From Ipomoea triloba (lineage: Eukaryota; Streptophyta; Magnoliopsida; Solanales; Convolvulaceae), in contig NC_044923.1 in assembly GCF_003576645.1 (NCBI RefSeq), positions 5,300,788 through 5,364,787 of the forward strand: 64,000 bases of DNA. The letters are read 5' to 3'. The notes under the pieces were generated by a model that saw only the letters and a list, made by a program, of their open reading frames with translations, ran no database searches and was not told the DNA's origin. A program made the translations under genes and the position numbers. Positions 14,978-62,617 of this stretch are shown in pieces. Every line of letters begins with the position of its first letter. Position 1 is the stretch's first letter.

Positions 14978-15538
14978 AGCGGATAGATATGTTAGGTCCA
15001 CAAATAATTAAATATAATTATATTTATTTAAATTAATTTTCATTACAATTATAAATTTATAATTCAAATAAGTAAATAAAAAATAAAATATAAGATAGAT
15101 ATGGTGGGTCCACAAAAATTAATAAAAAGAAAGAATTTTAAGAATTGAGTGAGATAGCGGATAATAATGTGAATGTTTGGACTTACAAAAAACTTGAGAA
15201 AAAACTCAAACTTTTGAGGTTAACCTTAATAACACAACAGGTTTGCACATATAGGGCAAAAAGGTAAATATATAAAAAGACATATATACCCCTCTTAATT
15301 AGGGGTATAAGCTTAATTTTGATAAATAGGAGCACCAAATTGGTAAAATCAAGCAGCACACCCACACCCACTCACAAAACCTCAACTTTCATCAAAATTT
15401 AACCTGCATCTAACCACTACACATTCCTCATTTCTACCGTCCCCATTTGAAACACAGTGGGGAAACCAAAATCGGAACAAAAATCCCCAAAAAATTCTCA
15501 AAAACTCCTCAAAAAAAATCGGGAAAGCGAAGAAAAAA

Positions 15539-16762
15539 ATGGAACACCATACCACCACGAGCCGAGCTGAAGCAGAGCGGCTACTTGGAATCGCCGAGAA
15601 GCTTCTGAGGAACAAGGACTACTCCGGCTGCAAAGACTTCGCGCTGTTGGCGCAAGAAACGGAGCCGTTACTGGAAGGCTCCGACCAGATCTTGGCCGTC
15701 GCGGAGGTCCTATTGGCCTCCACCAGGAAGATCAACAACCACCAGGACTGGTACTCCATTCTCCAAATCGGAAACCGCACCGACGACGCCGAGCAGATCA
15801 AGAAGCAGTACCGCCGTTTCGCGCTCCTCCTCCACCCCGACAAGAACAAGTACATGTTCGCCGATGCCGCGTTCGGCCTCGTCGCGGACGCATGGGCCGT
15901 TTTGTCGGACCCTACTAAGAAATCGCTGTACGATAACGAGATGTCGCTTTATACGAAGGTCGATTTGGTGCCGACGAAGAAACCGGCGGCGAAATGGCAG
16001 CCGCCGACGGCGGCTGCCGCGCGCCGATCTGAGGATCAAGGTCAGAAACTCCCGGTGAGGAGGAGCTCGAGAGTAAGCGGTAATAATAGCAATAATAATG
16101 AGAATAGTAATAGTAATAGCGGTAATGAGAATAGTAATTTCAATAATAGCGGTGGGAATAATCAGAGTGGAGGGGGGAGAAATACGAACCCTAGGAGTGG
16201 AATTGGGGGTGGAGTGAAAGCTCAGAGGGCGACTTTTTGGTCGGTGTGTCCGTACTGTTATAATCTGTACGAGTATGAGAGGACTTATTTAGGGTGTTGT
16301 TTGAGGTGTGAGAATTGCGAGAGGGCGTTCACGGCGGCGGAGATACGGCAGATGCCGCCGCGAGTGCCGGGGAAGAATGCTTACTATTGCTGTTGGGGAT
16401 TTTTCCCAATGGGGTTTGTGATAGGGAACACTGATGGAAAGAGAAGTATCTCTAATTCTGCTAATGCTGCTAGTGGTTTCCCCAATTGGATGCCTCCGAT
16501 GTTCCCGGGAGGAGGCGGTGGTGGAGGAGGAGCACCGCCAGCAGCAGCCCCGGCTGCTGCTGTGGCCCCCACCGCCCCTGCCAATGGAGAGGGGTTTGTG
16601 CCTGTTGCCGAGGGTAATGTGGGCGGCACGAATGTTACTGTAATGGGGATTGCGGCCGGGGGAGCTGCGCCTGCTGCGCCAAAGCCTAAGCCAAAACCGT
16701 CGCCCCAGCCAGTGTCGGGAGGGCCTAGGAAGAGAGGTAGGCCTAGGAAGAATCCACTATAG
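15539..16762 (+). CDS. Intronless J-domain (DnaJ-like) protein with Cys motif and AT-hook
   Basis: 407 aa, one exon. An N-terminal helical region (residues 8-65, with AEAERLLGIAEKLL and DYSGCKDFALLAQE) is followed by a J domain at about 70-135: DWYSILQIG, QIKKQYRRFALLLHPDKNKY with the HPD motif at 99-101, and DAWAVLSDPTKKSLYD. J domains stimulate Hsp70 ATPase. A low-complexity Asn/Ser/Gly linker (180-228) leads to a conserved plant motif ATFWSVCPYCYNLYEYERTY with CLRCENC at 254-260, a likely zinc-binding pair. The C-terminus is Gly/Ala/Pro-rich and ends with KRGRPRKNPL, an AT-hook-like motif at 398-404 that suggests a nuclear role. It belongs to the plant type C J-protein group whose members share the TFW-CPxC block. 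The start codon precedes the conserved helix, and the coding part is strikingly GC-richer than its surroundings. Client and partner are unknown. Confidence 0.92.
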   Translation: MEHHTTTSRAEAERLLGIAEKLLRNKDYSGCKDFALLAQETEPLLEGSDQILAVAEVLLASTRKINNHQDWYSILQIGNRTDDAEQIKKQYRRFALLLHPDKNKYMFADAAFGLVADAWAVLSDPTKKSLYDNEMSLYTKVDLVPTKKPAAKWQPPTAAAARRSEDQGQKLPVRRSSRVSGNNSNNNENSNSNSGNENSNFNNSGGNNQSGGGRNTNPRSGIGGGVKAQRATFWSVCPYCYNLYEYERTYLGCCLRCENCERAFTAAEIRQMPPRVPGKNAYYCCWGFFPMGFVIGNTDGKRSISNSANAASGFPNWMPPMFPGGGGGGGGAPPAAAPAAAVAPTAPANGEGFVPVAEGNVGGTNVTVMGIAAGGAAPAAPKPKPKPSPQPVSGGPRKRGRPRKNPL

Positions 16763-26519: not shown

Positions 26520-26994
26520 GCATCTGTGTTAGGTGAGATAGCTAGCCTAGAGATTTAAAGTTGTCCCATACCTAAAGTCAATGATCGAACTCTTAAATCT
26601 TTTCACTCAACCGCACCCCATGTTAACTAGGGATATACTCTAATCATGGTGAACATGAATACTTAAAGTTCAAAACTTGATTCAATTTGAAAAATCAAAT
26701 CTCAACCTTGACTTGAATATGGTCAATAAAGTTTTGTTTTCTTTCTATTTTTTTTTTTACAAAAATAATATAAACATTTTACATTTGAACATGATAATAA
26801 AACTCAATATTACCCAAAAAAAAACTCAATATTAAATCTTAATTATAATCCCTTCATAGCGTATAAATATATTAGCTAAATTTGTAATACATACATACAT
26901 TAGAAAAAAAAAAAACTAAATTAGTCTTACGAGTTAGTTGATCTAAGTATTAAGATGTGCTATGTTTTGAATTATGTGATAATATATTAGATAT

Positions 26995-27460
26995 TGTTAT
27001 GAATAATAACAATAATTGTGATATTAAAAATGAAGAATATAGAGATGAAGAACACTGAAATGGAGTAGAAGAAGGAAGCAATTCGTATTGATGATGTTTC
27101 TGGATGATCTTTTACAGAGGAGTGAAGGGGTATTTATAGTACCCGGAAATGAATAAATAAATACATATATGTACAGGGATGGTTCATAATTGCCGCTTAG
27201 CTTTGCTGGCTTTGTCAACTGCTAGATGCTCCTCTCGCCGCCCTATGGTTACGGGATCGATTCCTCCTAGCTCATAGCTTTTGTCTTCATCTGGTATTAG
27301 CTTCATCTAGCTTTCAGGGAAACATTTAGGTATTAAATGGTCTCTGAACTATCATTAATAGCAGCAGTAACAAAGTGGATTGAATCTTGAGTTCTAAGCA
27401 ATAGGTCCAAGGCTCGAATCATAGCTTGGACATCCACCATTTTCTTTTTGTTTCATAACA
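26995..27460 (-). repeat. Downstream (3') LTR of the Copia element
   Basis: 466 bp, TG...CA. Contains a TATA box on the minus strand (TATAAATA, 27131-27138) inside ACTATAAATACCCC. Confidence 0.9.
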
Positions 27461-27474
27461 CTCCCCCTTGGATG
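27461..27474 (-). other. Polypurine tract of the Copia element
   Basis: Minus-strand CATCCAAGGGGGAG abuts the TG of the downstream LTR, the expected place for plus-strand DNA priming. Confidence 0.8.
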
Positions 27475-27480
27475 TCCAAA

Positions 27481-28045
27481 GGATTAACACTATATTGCCT
27501 CGTTAAAAACCTTACCAAAGAAAAACCCATTGGGTACAAAAAAAAAAAAAACTTTGGGTAAGGGAAAAAGAGTACAATATGTGCTCCTGATAAAGACATC
27601 ATTGAAGATCAGATTTGTGATTTGTGTGCTCCTCCTTGCTTCTGAAGATTTTTGAGATGATGCCATACTGATTAATAACGTTTTCCATTGGCCATCACCT
27701 TATCATACTCATGCCTCATTAAAAAAAAATTTCGCTAGAAAAACCCTGTGGGAAAAAATCTGGCCGAGGGAAAAAGAGTACATGGTATGTCTAATTATGT
27801 ACTGGCCGAGGGAAAAAGAGTACATGGTATGTCTAATTATGTATTGCACTGGTTGCCTCATTAAAAACCTTACGCTAAGAAAACCCAGTGGGAAAAAACT
27901 TAGCTAAGGGAAAAAGAGTATAACCATAACCCCAACATAAACTTCAGGACATAATATTCATATAACCATAACCCCAACATAAACTTCAGGACATAATATT
28001 CATGATTCATTATGCTCCCCATAAACTTCAGGACATAATATTCAT
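27481..28045 (-). repeat. Tandemly reiterated 3' noncoding modules of the Copia element
   Basis: Three versions of the Copia 3' signature (near 27500-27575, 27715-27790 and 27850-27920), each with GGGAAAAAGAGTA on the plus strand and a GCCTCRTTAAAAA word. Within them a unit of about 43 bp (TGGCCGAGGGAAAAAGAGTA...) is duplicated head to tail at 27760-27846. A further unit (AACTTCAGGACATAATATTC) occurs three times at 27940-28045. Confidence 0.8.
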
Positions 28046-29990
28046 GATTCATTATGCTCCCCTGAAGATAACATTCTACAAATCCCTTATTTTAAACTTC
28101 CAAAATGTAGAGGGATTTTGTGAACAATCATGTTCAACTGTCAATGGGAAAAATATATTTCATAATAATTGCGTGACTCTTTTTAGAGCTGATGTGGGTA
28201 TAATACTGACATTATCATGTCTAGTTAATTTTCATAATATACCCATAACATAATTCTTATTGTCCACTTATAGAACAATGGTGAAAATTATAGTACAACC
28301 AGTTTTTGGAACTTGGCATCATGGGCATATAATAATAATAGCCAGTACCCAAGTAGCCCATTATATAGTGGCTTGTCTAAGTAGCCAACCAGAATCATTT
28401 ATGGGCTAACTGGTGTATAAATTCATTTTCAAGGAAATACTCGATCTTTCAAGTTGAGATAATATTTAGCTTTCACATACAAGCTTTTCATTTCAAAATC
28501 CCCGTCTTTAGACATGAGCTAACATCATTAAGCTCTTTATATATTTCATTGATGTTTATACCATCAATATTGACTGAGATGTTCATTGTTAACTCTTTAT
28601 TGAACACAAAATGACACATATTATTCCTTCTTCAGAAGGGAAAAATACTCAGTATGTTTCAGGTCATATATAGACCTTAAAATCCATCATGGATTTTCGA
28701 ATATACTGTCCAATGACCCATATTTATGAGGTCATGACATATTGTCCAATGACCCATCTTTATGCGGTCATGACTTTAATCAACTGCATATTATTCACTG
28801 CCAATGATATAATCAGCGAAACTTATTGCCATCCATTTATTATGACAAGAATATGGGAGAGTATATCAATTATGGGCATCTATGTAATCCCATGAGCTCC
28901 AAGCCTCGCTTTTAATCACATCATATTATTATTCTCTTTCGTACCAAAACCTATTCAATGGTGTGTACATAATTTAGAGAATATCGAGCTGAGCTATTTG
29001 CCTTCCTTAATTGCTCATTTTATTTATCAAATGATTAGGCCAATTCTTATGCCTAACTCTGGATCCAGATAGAGCAAATATAAAGGCAATTGAGTTGTCG
29101 ACAACATTTTCATAATTTTCTCCCATATCCATGGCAATTTCAAAATCAACCAGATGATAAACATTTCCAATCAATACTCAAATCTGGTCGTTTCGCATCC
29201 CAGTATTAATTATTTGGTGCACCACTGGGTATTTCGTCTTTTGACGAATGTCTCTTTTAGAAATTATTGATAGGTATATCAATAGATATATATTTGGCAG
29301 GAATTAATAATCTACTGTACATTTAGTTCAGTCAATCTAGTATGTGAAATTTTTTAAGATCTTTTCATTTCATGAAATTTTCTCGGCATTCAAATTTTTT
29401 AAAATAATTTGGGCATATATTCTCCCCCTAATGCTGAGAAATGATCTTCATGCAGTCAGCGTATCAAATGATCTTATATCATGGGCTCTAGGTTTTTATA
29501 CAATACATGGATATTTATAATCAACATGTATACCTAGCTTTATTTAATAGCTCGTAGAGATACGCAATGATGTGATAATAAAATAGACTGCATATTGATA
29601 AAACACAGATTTGGGAAATGTTCAATTTTCACCACGTACTAGATGTAAGGGGAATATTCATTGTATGCAGTATGTCAGATTTCATAAACAGTAGTATATC
29701 AAATTAGACTCCCATATAATTTGAAAATTTTCATTTAAGCATGCTTCATAAAATAATCATGCAAATAGGGAGACTACTGTTTGACATATATACGATGTCT
29801 TATTCATATTATTTCAAATCTGACTTATCAATATTTAGTCCAAATCAATGGTAGCCCCGACAAATCAGTATTCCCTAAAGATGTTTTGAAAACCGCAATC
29901 GTTGTAAACAGTAAGATGCAGTAATTGTTATCTTTTCACGGGACAACTGACTTTGAAATACTCAATCGGTTTAAACAGTATTAGCATTCT
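28046..29990. other. Interior of the Copia element without recognisable coding
   Basis: No reverse transcriptase, integrase or RNase H frame could be recognised on either strand. A short direct repeat (TGTCCAATGACCCAT) occurs at about 28707 and 28742. The right part would be upstream sequence of the RWP-RK gene. Confidence 0.5.
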
Positions 29991-30009
29991 AATACTGATT
30001 GCTTATTGC

Positions 30010-30017
30010 TATAAATT
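30010..30017 (+). promoter_or_regulatory. Candidate TATA box of the RWP-RK gene
   Basis: CTATAAATTC lies about 110 bp upstream of the ATG at 30122, giving a plausible leader of about 80 nt. It suggests that the captured gene came with its own promoter. Motif-based inference. Confidence 0.4.
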
Positions 30018-30121
30018 CATTATTCGTTATTCCCTTTTTGCCATTCTATCGCTCACATTCACTTCTGAGCATTTTCCGTTCTAGACTTATTACTCGTTTA
30101 CTTCATTTGCACCTTTTGCAA

Positions 30122-31045
30122 ATGGCAAGTACTACTCATTCCTCATCTCAAGATAATTCTTCCTTTTGGGATGAGATTCACCTATCACCGTTAAGGGATA
30201 GTGCACAGAGTACATATCATACTTCTGTCGAAAATTTTGAGAATGCTCCAACAGAATTGAATGAGATAGTTGGTAAGGGTTCAACCTTTTTCAAGAATTC
30301 TTATTCTATAAGTGTAATATTAACTTATAGCTTTTAATGCAGGTACTGCAGTTACAGATGTTGTGGCTGCAGACCAAAGTAATACTGTAGTGGTAGAGGA
30401 AGATAATACCATTACAGCGGTAGATGTAGCAAATATAAATGCCAATGTATTTATTGGGAGAAAGAGGACTAGGAGAACATTTTGTGATACTACCACATTA
30501 ACTTTTGAAATGTTTTCTAAATATTTCTATTTGACCGCTGATCAAGCTGCAGAAGAATTGCAGGTCGGGAGAGCAACTTTCAAGAAAAAATGTAGGGAAG
30601 TAGGGATTGCCTACTGGCCTTATCGGAAACTTGTGAGTTTGGACAGGCTATTAGCAAATGTCCAGGTAATTTCTAATTTACTTTCAACTTGATATTATTG
30701 AAGTAGGTTTAACAATTTGTGGTGTAGGAATTCGGTGAAATCAAAGATCAAGCTGAACTGCAAATGGTAATAAAGGGGCTAGAAGATGAGAAGAAAGCAA
30801 TTCTACAGGATCCAAACATAGAGTTGGCTGAGGCAACAACAAGACTCAGAGACAAATGTGACAGGAATAGTTCTAAAAAGAGAAGGTATATAGATCCGAC
30901 AGCTATTCCTTCAACTATTCCTGAGAGTTCATCACAAGCTCCTATATTTCCTGATATTCCTGAATTAGCACCGGAGGACATACGGGAAGTACTCGCTTTG
31001 TTAGATGAAGATGTTCCTCCTCCCAATAATACTAATGACAATTAA
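30122..31045 (+). CDS. RWP-RK domain (RKD-like) transcription factor captured in a retrotransposon
   Basis: Exons 30122-30272, 30343-30665 and 30728-31045 join through GT-AG introns of 70 and 62 bp, in phase, to 263 aa with no internal stop. The RWP-RK domain spans about residues 100-152: LTFEMFSKYFYLTADQAAEE, then LQVGRATFKKKCREVGI and YWPYRKLVSLDRLL. The signature RWPxRK reads YWPYRK (141-146), so its first Arg is replaced. A coiled-coil-like stretch (DQAELQMVIKGLEDEKKAIL onward, 166-200) and basic SKKRRY (207-212) follow, the usual RKD C-terminal layout. The tail is acidic and Pro-rich. RKD proteins are known nuclear regulators of egg-cell and gametophyte identity. The gene lies inside, and antisense to, a Copia element; this orientation would protect its introns from splicing during retrotransposition. 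Expression is unknown. Confidence 0.85.
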
Positions 31046-31530
31046 AAACATTATGACTTATTGTTCATCTTAAACTTTCTCATCAACTTGATCATTTAAT
31101 TTGCTTCTTTCAAGCATATATATAGCCCTTAAAATTTAAGCATATACGATTCCATATTATTACATAAAGTGCCAAAATAACATTAATCAAAATTAAAGCA
31201 GTTAAAGTGAAAGTCACTTCACTTTGATAATAGGATGCCAGGCTAATCCATTTTCTCAATTTATGAGAAATCATCATCATCATTATCATCACATATTCAT
31301 GATGATTTAATCAGTCGTGCCAAATCATAAAATTATACAAATCAGTAAACTTTTAGTTTACAATAAGATTGGCTTCAATGGCACTCATTACAGTGCAACA
31401 TGAGGAAAAACAAGGGAATTTTCCAATACATATTTCTTCCCTGACATTGCCTTTGTAATTTAAAGAAATTCTCAATTCCTTTATTTTATAGTCTCAACTT
31501 GACATTCGTCATTACAAACATTCAAATTCA
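31046..31530. other. Junction between RWP-RK gene and Copia remnant
   Basis: AT-rich. The 3' flank of the RWP-RK gene merges into degenerate Copia sequence. I could not place the capture breakpoint. Confidence 0.4.
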
Positions 31531-31762
31531 ATAACCTTTTGATGAGACTTCGGAGGGAACAATGCATTACAATTTTTCAATGCATATTATAAATTTGTTC
31601 CTCCAGGCAATAATATATTGGCTCATTCAGAGCTTTCAATCATTTCGTACTACCAAATATTGTAGTAACAAATTCCTCACCTTTTCAATGTGCAGAAACA
31701 CTTTGCACTTTTAATCATTGTATGTGTGGTTCCAATATCCACAACACATACATTTTCCTCAT
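31530..31762 (-). pseudogene. Copia aspartic-protease fragment, broken
   Basis: Minus-strand reading from 31762 gives NEENVCVVDIGTTHTMIKSA. This matches the Copia protease site (usually DSGTTHT or DSATTHT), here with Ile in place of Ser/Ala. Further on, ANILLPGGTNL and KSHQKVIEFE resemble the following protease region but are interrupted by stops. It fixes the element's superfamily and minus orientation and shows that pol is inactive. Confidence 0.65.
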
Positions 31763-32236
31763 TCCTTTCTTGATCCAATCAAGAGTGATGATGCATTTAT
31801 TTGCTTCTTTGAAGCACATATCTTTCAAGGATTAGGCATCACATGATTTATCATCCAATTTTCTCCATATGGTATTTAATTTGGAGATAGCATATGCCAA
31901 ACAAGCATAATTATACATTTTTATCCCATGATTTTGATAAACATATCAAAATACCTTTCATTTATAACATATGGGATAAACTTTATGGCCGTTAGCATAA
32001 TATTGATGATTCACATGGCCATAGCATAAGAAAGCAAGTTGTGACACAAAATTAATTGTCACATAAATTCATCATCTTCTAATAATTTCATCAATTATAA
32101 TAATAAATTTCGAAATTTCACCACATATATATATATATACATATATATCCACACGGTACACATAACAATTATATACATGCATATATTATTATATATACAT
32201 ACAAGACAATTGAGAACTCCCATGGCTCAAGGAGCA

Positions 32237-32677
32237 CTAATATACATACAAACATATAATATTATATATATATACTACACGCCACTGCCACACACATAAA
32301 TATATTATATGTATATATATAATACACAATAGAACATATATTATTATATACACACTCACAGTGCACAAGAAGCATTGTTCATCATCATCTTCTTCGTTGC
32401 CTTTTTCGCCGGAGAGAGAGAGCGCGAGGGAGAGGTCGGCTATGGCGGTGCAGTGGTGTGCCGGGCCGGCGTGAAGGAGGGATGGTGGTGGTTCGGCAAG
32501 GTGTGAGGTTTCTGTGTTGGTCATAGTTCGTCGCCGTCGAACTTCATTATTTTTGTTGTTGGTTTATATTTTTGTTTTGGCCGGAAAAAATGGTGGCGTG
32601 GGTTTGGTTTTCGCCGAAAAAAAAAATGGTGAAAGTGATTGTCGTGGCTTTTGGGTAAAGCATTCGTGCTGATAACG
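32237..32677 (-). other. Leader of the Copia element with primer-binding-like site
   Basis: Between the decayed gag/pol area and the upstream LTR. Minus-strand CGTTATCAGCACGAA (32663-32677) abuts the LTR end and is the likely tRNA primer site. An open frame of 95 codons at 32237-32524 has no gag features. Confidence 0.55.
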
Positions 32678-33143
32678 TGTTATGAATAATAACAATAATT
32701 GTGATATTAAAAATGAAGAATATAGAGATGAAGAACACTGAAATGGAGTAGAAGAAGGAAGCAATTCGTATTGATGATGTTTCTGGATGATCTTTTACAG
32801 AGGAGTGAAGGGGTATTTATAGTACCCGGAAATGAATAAATAAATACATATATGTACAGGGATGGTTCATAATTGCCGCTTAGCTTTGCTGGCTTTGTCA
32901 ACTGCTAGATGCTCCTCTCGCCGCCCTATGGTTACGGGATCGATTCCTCCTAGCTCATAGCTTTTGTCTTCATCTGGTATTAGCTTCATCTAGCTTTCAG
33001 GGAAACATTTAGGTATTAAATGGTCTCTGAACTATCATTAATAGCAGCAGTAACAAAGTGGATTGAATCTTGAGTTCTAAGCAATAGGTCCAAGGCTCGA
33101 ATCATAGCTTGGACATCCACCATTTTCTTTTTGTTTCATAACA
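32678..33143 (-). repeat. Upstream (5') LTR of the Copia element
   Basis: 466 bp, reads as identical to 26995-27460. In element orientation it carries the promoter (TATAAATA at 32814-32821, minus strand), directing transcription leftward, away from NHP2. Its outer edge lies 295 bp before the NHP2 ATG. Confidence 0.9.
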
Positions 33144-33418
33144 GATATTAATATTATATCTAAATTATAGCTTGTGACCAGGTGTAGCCCATTAAACCCA
33201 TAAATGATAAACCATAAGTCCATAACCCACTAAACCTTGTGACCCAGTCCAGTGAGTCCACTGTCCACACCTAAATTCCTAAAATTTAAATCCTAATTCC
33301 TAATGACCTAAATTTGAATTCTCCCTTCTCGTTCGCCATCTTCGTCCACATTAAAGGCTTAAACCCTATAAGTCGAACCTCTTAGCCGTGCATAAACCCT
33401 AGCTCCGTTGCCACAGAT

Positions 33419-61499: not shown

Positions 61500-61684
61500 T
61501 TATATTCTATATATAATCCTTTTCCCTCTCTATCTCCTCGAGCTTCTTGCGTTTATTGTTATTATATTCCTATATGCACACAACCATCTTCATCATTCCC
61601 AGTCCTATAGATATATAGAGAGAGAGAGAAAACATTGACTTATATAGAGAGAGAAACAGTGTTTTTTATGATTATTATTAAAAT
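61500..61684 (+). promoter_or_regulatory. Core promoter and leader of the AHL gene
   Basis: CTATATATAATCC (about 61507-61519) is a good TATA box. The leader has two similar blocks TATATAGAGAGAGAGA (61612-61630) and TATATAGAGAGAG (61640-61654) before the ATG. Confidence 0.5.
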
Positions 61685-62617
61685 ATGAAAGGGGAATTCG
61701 TAGATCAAGAAAACAACAAGGATAGTGCCAATATGTTCACTAAGATCCATCATTCTCCTCACCACCCTTATCACCACCCTCCGCCGCCGCAAAACCCTAA
61801 TTTTCACCTTTCCGGCGCCGATGAAACGAACAACCGCAGCCCTGCTTCGCCGTCCGGCGGTGATCGGAAGGAGGCAATTGCACCGCAGCCGGTGTCTGCT
61901 AGGCCGCCGCCGCAGGCGGCGGCGGCGGCGAGTGGCGGCAGCGACGGAGCGAGCATCGAGGTGATCCGGCGGCCGAGGGGGCGGCCGCCGGGGTCGAAGA
62001 ACAAGCCGAAGCCGGCGGTGATCATCACGCGCGACTCGGAGGCGTCGATGAGTCCGTACATTCTAGAAGTCCCGGCCGGGTCGGATTTGGTGGAGTCCGT
62101 GACCCGGTTCTGCCGGAAACACAATACGGGTCTCTGCGTTCTAAACGGGTCGGGTACCGTTTCCAACGTGACTCTCCGGCAGCCCTCCTCCACCCCCGGC
62201 GCCACCGTCACGTTCCACGGCCGCTTCGATATCCTCTCGATCTCCGCCACCGTCGTGCCGCCGAACGCGAGCTTTATGTACAATGGAACCGGCAGCGCCT
62301 TCACCATCTCGCTGGCCGGGCCTCAAGGCCAAGTGGTGGGTGGGGCCGTGGTGGGGCCCCTACTATCCGCCGGAACCGTTTACTTAATTTCCGCCACCTT
62401 CAACAACCCGTCTTATTACCGGTTCCCGACGGAGGAGGAGACCAGAAATTCCGGCGGCGGGGGAAGCGGGGGAAGTGAAGGGCGTCATCCGTCGCCGCAG
62501 ACGGCGGTTTCCGGCGGAGGAGAGGGCAGTGCCGCCGCGCCGGAGCCCTTGTATAGCGGCCATTTAGGTTCTGACGTCATCTGGGCTCCGACCGCTAGAC
62601 AGCCACCGCCATACTAA
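61685..62617 (+). CDS. AHL: AT-hook motif nuclear-localised (AHL) protein
   Basis: 310 aa, intronless as is usual for clade A AHL genes. The N-terminus is rich in His/Pro and Ala/Gly. One AT-hook at residues 95-110 (RRPRGRPPGSKNKPKP) binds the minor groove of AT-rich DNA. A PPC/DUF296 domain follows at about 122-245, with SPYILEVPAGSDLVESVTRF, GLCVLNGSGTVSNVTLRQP, the core GRFDILSISATVVP (usual GRFEIL, here Asp for Glu) and GPQGQVVGGAVVGPLLSAGT. The PPC domain drives AHL trimers and partner recruitment; known members control hypocotyl growth, flowering and flower development. The C-terminus is Gly/Ser/Pro-rich. Coding GC is far above that of the flanks. I cannot assign the exact AHL number. 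Confidence 0.96.
   Translation: MKGEFVDQENNKDSANMFTKIHHSPHHPYHHPPPPQNPNFHLSGADETNNRSPASPSGGDRKEAIAPQPVSARPPPQAAAAASGGSDGASIEVIRRPRGRPPGSKNKPKPAVIITRDSEASMSPYILEVPAGSDLVESVTRFCRKHNTGLCVLNGSGTVSNVTLRQPSSTPGATVTFHGRFDILSISATVVPPNASFMYNGTGSAFTISLAGPQGQVVGGAVVGPLLSAGTVYLISATFNNPSYYRFPTEEETRNSGGGGSGGSEGRHPSPQTAVSGGGEGSAAAPEPLYSGHLGSDVIWAPTARQPPPY

Follow-up and report, generated by a model that had tools for sequence, protein, structure and literature searches.

We have analysed a 64-kb stretch of the Ipomoea triloba genome (C8:5300788-5364787, hereafter the window), in which a Copia-type long terminal repeat (LTR) retrotransposon of 6,149 bp on the minus strand (26995-33143) carries a complete RWP-RK transcription factor gene in antisense. 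The element has transposed in multiple copies, the reading frames of its gene are intact and under purifying selection, and RWP-RK genes are found in several transposon settings. We consider it fairly probable (roughly 0.62) that the RWP-RK gene is mobile cargo, which would have been taken up by Helitrons and passed from there into LTR elements, and whose protein would serve the transposons.

Structure of the window element and its gene

The element is bounded by two LTRs that agree at 466 of 466 bases and have the ends TGTTATGAAT...TTTCATAACA, and both copies of a GATAT target duplication have been located beside them (Table 1), as a preliminary description of this DNA had claimed. Such an LTR pair, with TG...CA ends and a 5-bp target duplication, fits a Copia-type LTR retrotransposon. 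When the minus strand is read, CGTTATCAGCACGA... comes directly after the 5' LTR and ...AAGGGGGAG directly ahead of the 3' LTR; we take the former to be the primer binding site, and the latter is presumably the polypurine tract.

The element has no gag and pol of its own, as the longest stop-to-stop stretch in the three minus-strand interior frames is 108 aa. Three X-marked pieces of the minus-strand frames of the window, which are not all the frames, were scanned with Pfam and gave zero gag-pol matches. At the protein level the Copia type is indicated through similarity to related loci: the predicted broken protease was recovered as a protease/GAG-pre-integrase remnant, matched by stretches of related loci at tblastn E values of 5.5e-8 to 2.2e-14, these stretches themselves failing to reach the Pfam thresholds (E 0.008 and 0.08 for Pol_BBD, 0.09 for gag_pre-integrs). 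The remnant and the RWP-RK gene stand tail-to-tail, and in the window copy the stop codon of the gene is 269 bp from the remnant. A further RNase H remnant near 28.1 kb was read by eye only, without tool support, and is not claimed.

The gene itself agrees with the preliminary description in its three plus-strand exons and in its in-phase GT-AG introns, both of which are present in the window copy. It encodes a stop-free protein of 263 aa with an RWP-RK domain at residues 103-150 (Pfam, E 4.5e-17), a domain that the RKD subfamily has, and the TATA box ahead of it, also noted before, is conserved. In five host RKD-like frames, Q-V or K-V follows the domain at the place matching intron 2. This reads like a CAG-GT or AAG-GT donor, and host RKD-like genes may share the position of intron 2. 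The carried gene is repeated by RKD1-like NCBI proteins of I. triloba, models that may derive from the same assembly as the window, and by sweetpotato proteins. Among the protein matches listed (18, 18 and 22 proteins), the named ones are from I. triloba, I. batatas and I. trifida, with none from outside Ipomoea, and one match bears no species name; the method needs shared 5-residue words.

Multicopy insertions of the element

Searching the genome (462 Mb, 17 contigs) with the gene DNA gave at least 40 scored copies among 82 candidates, some of them partial. This rules out a single-copy capture and bears out the earlier suggestion that the gene is multicopy. Among the 30 copies read (L039-L068, L039 being the window copy), 21 were intact by script. 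Two others, L047 and L048, missed the script by one base and their proteins were read as full; the copies left out of the intact count are L045-L048, L054-L057 and L059, with L057 running into Ns. The LTR pair at C4:21.2M was rejected as a gene carrier, since an RWP-RK match was absent from all three pieces examined.

Two sister elements, at C1:71205-76381 and C11:15207522-15213550, share the gene-bearing interior with the window element and have the target duplications CAACT and ACAGA, respectively. Their genes are 100% identical to the window gene as rounded by the search, with two residues differing per protein, and the C1 element is without the part corresponding to 28590-29438. Because the three insertions have different target duplications, the gene moves as a unit with the element, and an insertion around a resident host gene, which the preliminary description had named as the outcome that would speak against it, is rejected. 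These observations support the claim that a pol-dead element carries the complete gene as one mobile unit.

The LTR pairs of the C1 and C11 elements agree at 460/465 and 457/461 positions, and a further pair compared agrees at 410/412. The C11 LTRs are only 76% like those of the window element, yet the two elements barely differ in the interior, a mosaic that could have come from template switching or from chimeric assembly. According to the section of its report cited here (PMC6214957), the I. triloba assembly was built from short reads with SOAPdenovo2 and GapCloser, including gap filling. Exact 42-nt tandem duplications make up 50 of the 55 exact tandem duplications in 318,728 bases (the window plus partly overlapping loci), and those in the window lie at 27760, 27919, 27978 and 59490, three of them within the element. 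Since this is a short-read assembly with join artefacts, LTR identity has not been used as a date. Such a 42-nt artefact can also put 14 extra residues into gene models.

A promoter-gene block on different flanks

The gene copies sort into three groups, namely A with window-like flanks, C with 87-90% identity and other flanks, and B (Copia B) with 82-83% identity. What A, B and C have in common is the gene with up to ~270 bp of promoter including the TATA box, while the flanks differ between groups. The homology with the other-flank copies begins at 29844-30120 (mostly 29852-30005) and stops just past the stop codon. The promoter sequence is in part common to copies on three different flanks. 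In the 11 copies of group B (L058-L068), intron 1 is replaced by 6-9 nt and intron 2 is retained; this loss might stem from exchange with a partly spliced copy.

The related element L080 has LTRs 76% like those of the window element and a backbone match of 80-89%. It is without the gene block (29845-31125) and has ~200 bp of other, mostly AT-rich sequence there, and the gap may be either an empty site or a deletion. As an autonomous partner L080 was rejected, with no listed frame above 132 aa and the gene block absent.

Purifying selection on the carried gene

The dN/dS values among carried copies, which the preliminary description had proposed to compare, have been calculated by the Nei-Gojobori method on pairs that are not independent, and the medians fall between 0.27 and 0.31 in five comparisons. 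Within groups the median is 0.29 for A (36 pairs) and 0.31 for B (45 pairs). Between groups it is 0.28 for A-C (18 pairs), 0.27 for C-B (20 pairs) and 0.27 for A-B (90 pairs), the last with a median dS of 0.48. For the RWP-RK domain, dN/dS drops to 0.07-0.13 in three deep pairs, and a fourth, recent pair is uninformative (0.25, interval 0.00-1.70). The constraint is seen within family A too, where all that the window copy retains of pol is a dead remnant. Overall, the regulator is under constraint, with its DNA-binding part held about like the reverse transcriptase (RT) frame and its tails less so.

RWP-RK genes in other LTR elements

The preliminary description had inferred that a non-autonomous family mobilised the gene. 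RWP-RK cargo is not special to the window family and is also present in a Copia family with long gag/pol frames and in two Gypsy-type classes.

Nine of the 11 Copia B loci have an RT frame that faces the gene tail-to-tail and ends 0.4-0.5 kb from it, the nine including L064 (a 40-residue stretch only), L058 (with a stop) and L061 (in pieces). As to the two exceptions, L063 has protease and integrase beside the gene, and L059 shows none. RVT_2 was matched in L067 (E 1.2e-9), and in L062 (E 4e-7) and L065 (E 6e-7) below the cut-off; the RNase H within this frame was read by eye, Pfam giving RVT_2 only. One Copia B locus shows gag (E 4e-21) and integrase (E 8e-16), and L083, which is the L063 locus, holds a gag frame of 814 aa.

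In a second setting, an RWP-RK gene class of 106 aa stands tail-to-tail with a Gypsy integrase-like end in 6 of 9 fetched loci, a count that includes the query and a 22-residue match; the Tat-type label of these Gypsy elements is a by-eye reading. An antisense gene past pol, the pattern known as aORF-3R, is thus found in 9/11 Copia B loci and 6/9 loci of the 106-aa class, the 3' LTRs of which were not located.

A 333-aa class is placed in sense, 941-1497 bp downstream of an Athila-like integrase (rve, E 6.9e-19; lineage name by eye), at 13 of the 15 integrase matches with at least 96% identity, and the two copies without the gene may merely be unscored. Beside the next 7 integrase matches (85-86%), none of the 18 RWP-RK rows used is found. 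This comparison was made between 22 integrase rows from 116 and 18 hand-picked RWP-RK rows, with the best 113 of 4,343 candidates scored. Finally, the genes of the P0008 class (47% identical to the window gene; L074, L076-L079) are head-to-head with Copia protease remnants. The gene sits at a different place of the backbone in this Copia family than in the window element.

Linkage to Helitron Rep genes and the domain tree

We scored 150 Helitron Rep matches out of 513 candidates. For 16 of them an RWP-RK locus is found no more than 10 kb away, where random placement would give 1.05, and never more than 4 in 500 trials. Within 20 kb the number is 20 of 150, against 2.06 expected (maximum 8), and 19 of these have the gene downstream. 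When only the top 30 Rep matches are considered, 18 have an RWP-RK gene 4.7-11.7 kb away, in 17 neighbourhoods and always downstream. The 150 Rep rows were compared with 150 listed RWP-RK rows, the 40 gene copies and 66 rows hand-chosen from a longer list, the 66 excluding second exons, repeats and some others. These merge into at least 201 RWP-RK loci, host RKD and NLP genes included. The dispersed Rep-gene linkage applies to RWP-RK genes in general. Group C has five genes, two of which (C4:26.58M and C15:5.90M) follow a Rep at distances of 6.8 and 7.3 kb; these two are 90 and 89% identical to the window gene.

One neighbourhood, C3:15450500-15465500 (L081, L082), has at least five RWP-RK frames among those scanned, with a Rep 5 kb outside it, and a frame like replication protein A (RPA) that matches Rep_fac-A_C below the cut-off (E 0.008). 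At L072, a frame resembling the C3 RPA-like one (E 7e-21) accompanies two RWP-RK genes whose domains are repeated, and in sweetpotato RWP-RK domains occur in proteins that bear the names replication factor A or replication protein A. Loci of the 178-aa RWP-RK class of the C3 neighbourhood are mostly 97-99% identical across long stretches.

In a separate observation, the sweetpotato models P0013, P0014 and P0040 (ARF2-like, RABD2a and shaggy-related kinase) include RWP-RK exon 2, which enters at the exon start and exits after the same residues (EELQ or EEMQ). These models look as though host genes had taken in the carried exon by splicing.

A tree of the domain (68 columns) was built without L028, L034 and L038, whose motif is outside the pattern, and with the 178-aa class as one row. 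In this tree A, B and C form a clade (support 99/96), and L081a, from the C3 Helitron neighbourhood, is placed next to it as sister with moderate support (81/82). The P0008 Copia gene groups with L082b of the same neighbourhood (94/94). L072p is the partner of the Athila-linked domain 2 (98/89) and belongs to a two-domain class that is found behind Rep at eight other places. The 106-aa class is a separate clade (98/98), not tied to other classes. Passage from Helitron to LTR element would be the simplest reading of this tree.

The preliminary description had called for the donor RKD gene to be found, and host RKD-like genes do exist here. As a donor, another transposon appears more likely than a host locus. 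Of the five genes that come closest to the window gene but have other flanks, two are near a Rep, so a Helitron appears to be the likeliest donor, though this is not proven.

Position of the features in the window

The coordinates of the element are collected in Table 1. Elsewhere in the window, frames at 15347-16762 and 61682-62617 resemble, by eye, DnaJ-type and AT-hook protein genes.

Table 1 Features of the Copia-type element and its RWP-RK gene, in window coordinates.
Feature	Position	Strand	Basis
Target site duplication GATAT, left	26990..26994	.	sequence
3' LTR, 466 bp	26995..27460	-	identical to 32678-33143; family members in genome
Polypurine tract AAGGGGGAG	27461..27475	-	adjoins 3' LTR; role presumed
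Three exact 42-nt tandem duplications, assembly-join artefact	27760..28061	.	duplication count
Promoter and RWP-RK gene block	29845..31125	+	absent from related element L080
TATA box of RWP-RK gene	30010..30017	+	in 10/10 aligned copies
RWP-RK exon 1, ATG at 30122	30122..30272	+	sequence
Intron 1, GT-AG, 70 nt	30273..30342	+	absent from 11 Copia B copies
RWP-RK exon 2, holds RWP-RK domain	30343..30665	+	sequence and Pfam
Intron 2, GT-AG, 62 nt	30666..30727	+	sequence
RWP-RK exon 3 with stop codon	30728..31045	+	sequence
Broken Copia protease / GAG-pre-integrase remnant	31314..31821	-	tblastn
Primer binding site CGTTATCAGCACGA	32660..32677	-	adjoins 5' LTR; role presumed
5' LTR	32678..33143	-	identical to 26995-27460
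Target site duplication GATAT, right	33144..33148	.	sequence

Discussion

The course of events that we propose is as follows. An RKD-like gene with its promoter and introns would have been taken up by an Ipomoea Helitron lineage and multiplied there, and copies would then have passed from the Helitrons into several LTR retrotransposons. In the window element, the gene came to lie antisense in a Copia backbone without pol, which would be copied via its LTRs in trans by the proteins of another Copia. Since the RNA that is packaged would run antisense to the gene and hence remain unspliced, the introns would have survived. Transcription of the gene is probably driven by the TATA promoter carried with it, on the other strand from the element, and its product is a predicted DNA-binding protein. 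Host RKD proteins act in egg or embryo cells, and the carried protein most likely serves the transposons, for example by raising their transcription in such cells. In a wider form, which we put forward only tentatively, both transposon classes in Ipomoea would share one pool of RKD-type transcription factors, passed among Helitrons, Copia and Gypsy elements as promoter-gene blocks and activating their carriers, as well as pol-dead relatives with the block, in the germ line. If this were true, selfish elements with no relationship to one another would own the regulator in common, and new host transcription factors would arise from it again and again.

Several observations weigh against the mobile-cargo reading. 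The Helitron case is one of proximity to Rep, and the random placement that it is compared with ignores the clustering of transposons; for the remaining three group-C genes, no Rep match among those listed is found up to 20 kb away. The tree is built on 68 columns and its deep forks are weak, and the host rows do not form one group, three changes being needed; because of this, any number and direction of transfers would be tentative. Pfam identifies the integrase-like end beside the 106-aa class only weakly, with a match under the cut-off (SH3_Tf2-1, E 0.01-0.03). As to selection, the rest of the gene evolves faster than the domain (dN/dS 0.30-0.41 in three deep pairs), and in six Copia B copies the pooled pN/pS is 0.08 for the RT frame versus 0.36 for the RWP-RK gene over the same 15 pairs, the comparison covering 6 of the 11 loci, with L058 dropped for one stop and L059, L061, L063 and L064 being without a single frame. 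Use by the host could equally hold dN/dS low. Errors in the assembly of repeats are evident, so an individual structure, the C11 mosaic for instance, may be a chimera.

Among the alternatives, each transposon family might have acquired an RWP-RK gene independently and directly from a host RKD locus, with no exchange between transposons. The presence of host RKD-like genes, possibly with the same intron 2 position, would agree with this, and so would the isolated clade of the 106-aa class and the different backbone place of the gene in the P0008 Copia class. We nevertheless regard such independent captures as rather unlikely, as the window gene and its counterparts on the A, B and C flanks agree at 82-97% and share promoter sequence but not their surroundings, and the Athila-linked and P0008 Copia domains both fall into Rep-linked groups. 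Since genes and promoter are shared while flanks are not, one capture followed by exchange fits best. It is also possible that the plant, and not the transposons, keeps the gene, the transposon copies being the route by which a regulator useful for dosage or stress is multiplied. Purifying selection even within the pol-dead family A is in line with such a benefit. In pearl millet, an RWP-RK expansion is tied to LTR elements and overexpression of one such gene improved heat tolerance, according to the passages cited (PMC10011142), and an RWP-RK gene is expressed in the roots of I. batatas and not in those of I. trifida in the part of the report used (PMC5234144), a gene that may or may not be transposon-borne. 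On the other hand, the recurrent ordered placement beside pol, integrase or Rep in several element types resembles element architecture, and dN/dS is alike for recent and old copies, as expected if active lineages need the gene; host benefit as the main cause seems unlikely to us.

An element inserted around a resident host RKD gene, or a structure produced by the assembly, is very improbable and largely refuted. The gap-filled short-read assembly, the join duplications within the element and the C11 case, with its divergent LTRs round a near-identical interior, could be taken in its favour, but the same gene is found between LTRs at three sites with three target duplications, RWP-RK genes adjoin pol or integrase in other families, and the gene is repeated by I. 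triloba RKD1-like proteins, which are maybe from the same assembly, and by sweetpotato proteins. We see just as little chance that the antisense gene acts as RNA (antisense or double-stranded, regulating its own element) and not as protein. Although an RNA-level role has been considered for antisense frames in general (PMC7264820, in the section cited here), constraint at the codon level, strongest in the DNA-binding domain, and the sense orientation behind the Athila-like integrase are at odds with it.

As a practical consequence, a number of the RKD genes predicted in annotations of Ipomoea are carried by transposons. Studies of gene families in sweetpotato, and RKD work in apomixis and embryogenesis, have to reckon with this. 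The findings also suggest gene exchange between rolling-circle transposons and retrotransposons.

Comparison with known systems

Antisense frames and LTR-linked RWP-RK genes are each known. What appears new is one transcription factor family common to class I and class II elements, for which we did not find a published case. Among the papers listed, judged mostly by title, none reports Helitron-borne RWP-RK genes or RWP-RK genes in the form of antisense frames, and the main text of a 2026 review on gene capture is without the words RWP, antisense or intron (PMC13317346). What antisense accessory genes do in plant retrotransposons is described as an open question, their proteins mostly resembling nothing known (PMC7264820, in the part cited). 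Because the family carried here has a known DNA-binding biology, its binding sites, tissue and effect are directly testable.

Antisense genes between pol and the 3' LTR form the known class aORF-3R (PMC7264820), with Grande gene23, RIRE2 and Retand TRP28 as examples (PMC7264820; PMC11963269); in the Retand clusters nearly all antisense regions encode TRP28, a predicted DNA-binding protein, according to the section drawn on (PMC11963269). The Ipomoea gene is like these in being antisense to gag-pol, in its place past pol (as far as Copia B and the 106-aa class are concerned), in recurring in most loci read, in having a putative promoter of its own, and in DNA binding, which is predicted for TRP28 and expected for RWP-RK. 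The examples named in those sections are from Gypsy elements (and PvRetro13), and encode TRP28 or proteins without clear similarity (PMC7264820; PMC11963269). The Ipomoea cargo, in contrast, belongs to a recognisable host transcription factor family with introns, and is also found in Copia elements, downstream of an Athila-like integrase in sense, and near Helitron Rep genes. The window copy differs further in standing beside a decayed protease, and not behind an intact pol.

In pearl millet, RWP-RK genes overlap intact LTR elements, and as in Ipomoea the family has been enlarged in connection with them; this is another plant lineage, and the passages cited (PMC10011142) are without orientation, element anatomy, introns or Helitrons. 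Gypsy elements of Phalaenopsis carry an AlkB-type RNA demethylase frame, as stated in the section used (PMC9289625). In Phalaenopsis as in Ipomoea, a host-derived gene has been fixed as an additional frame of an LTR lineage. The Phalaenopsis cargo is an enzyme in one Gypsy lineage, whereas that of Ipomoea is a transcription factor in several settings.

Rider/SUN of tomato is reportedly an LTR element carrying host gene sequence, and Bs1 of maize transduces host gene sequence, according to the part cited (PMC7264820). The window element is like both in this respect. Their cargo is usually in sense and in one or few copies, whereas the Ipomoea gene is antisense, intron-containing, repeated and constrained, so it is not a transduced host gene of the Bs1 type.

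Plant Helitrons capture genes and can carry RPA. The Ipomoea neighbourhoods resemble these in combining a Rep gene, RPA-like frames and other genes. They differ in having several complete-looking genes of one family, known here from their proximity to Rep, and this family is also carried by LTR elements.

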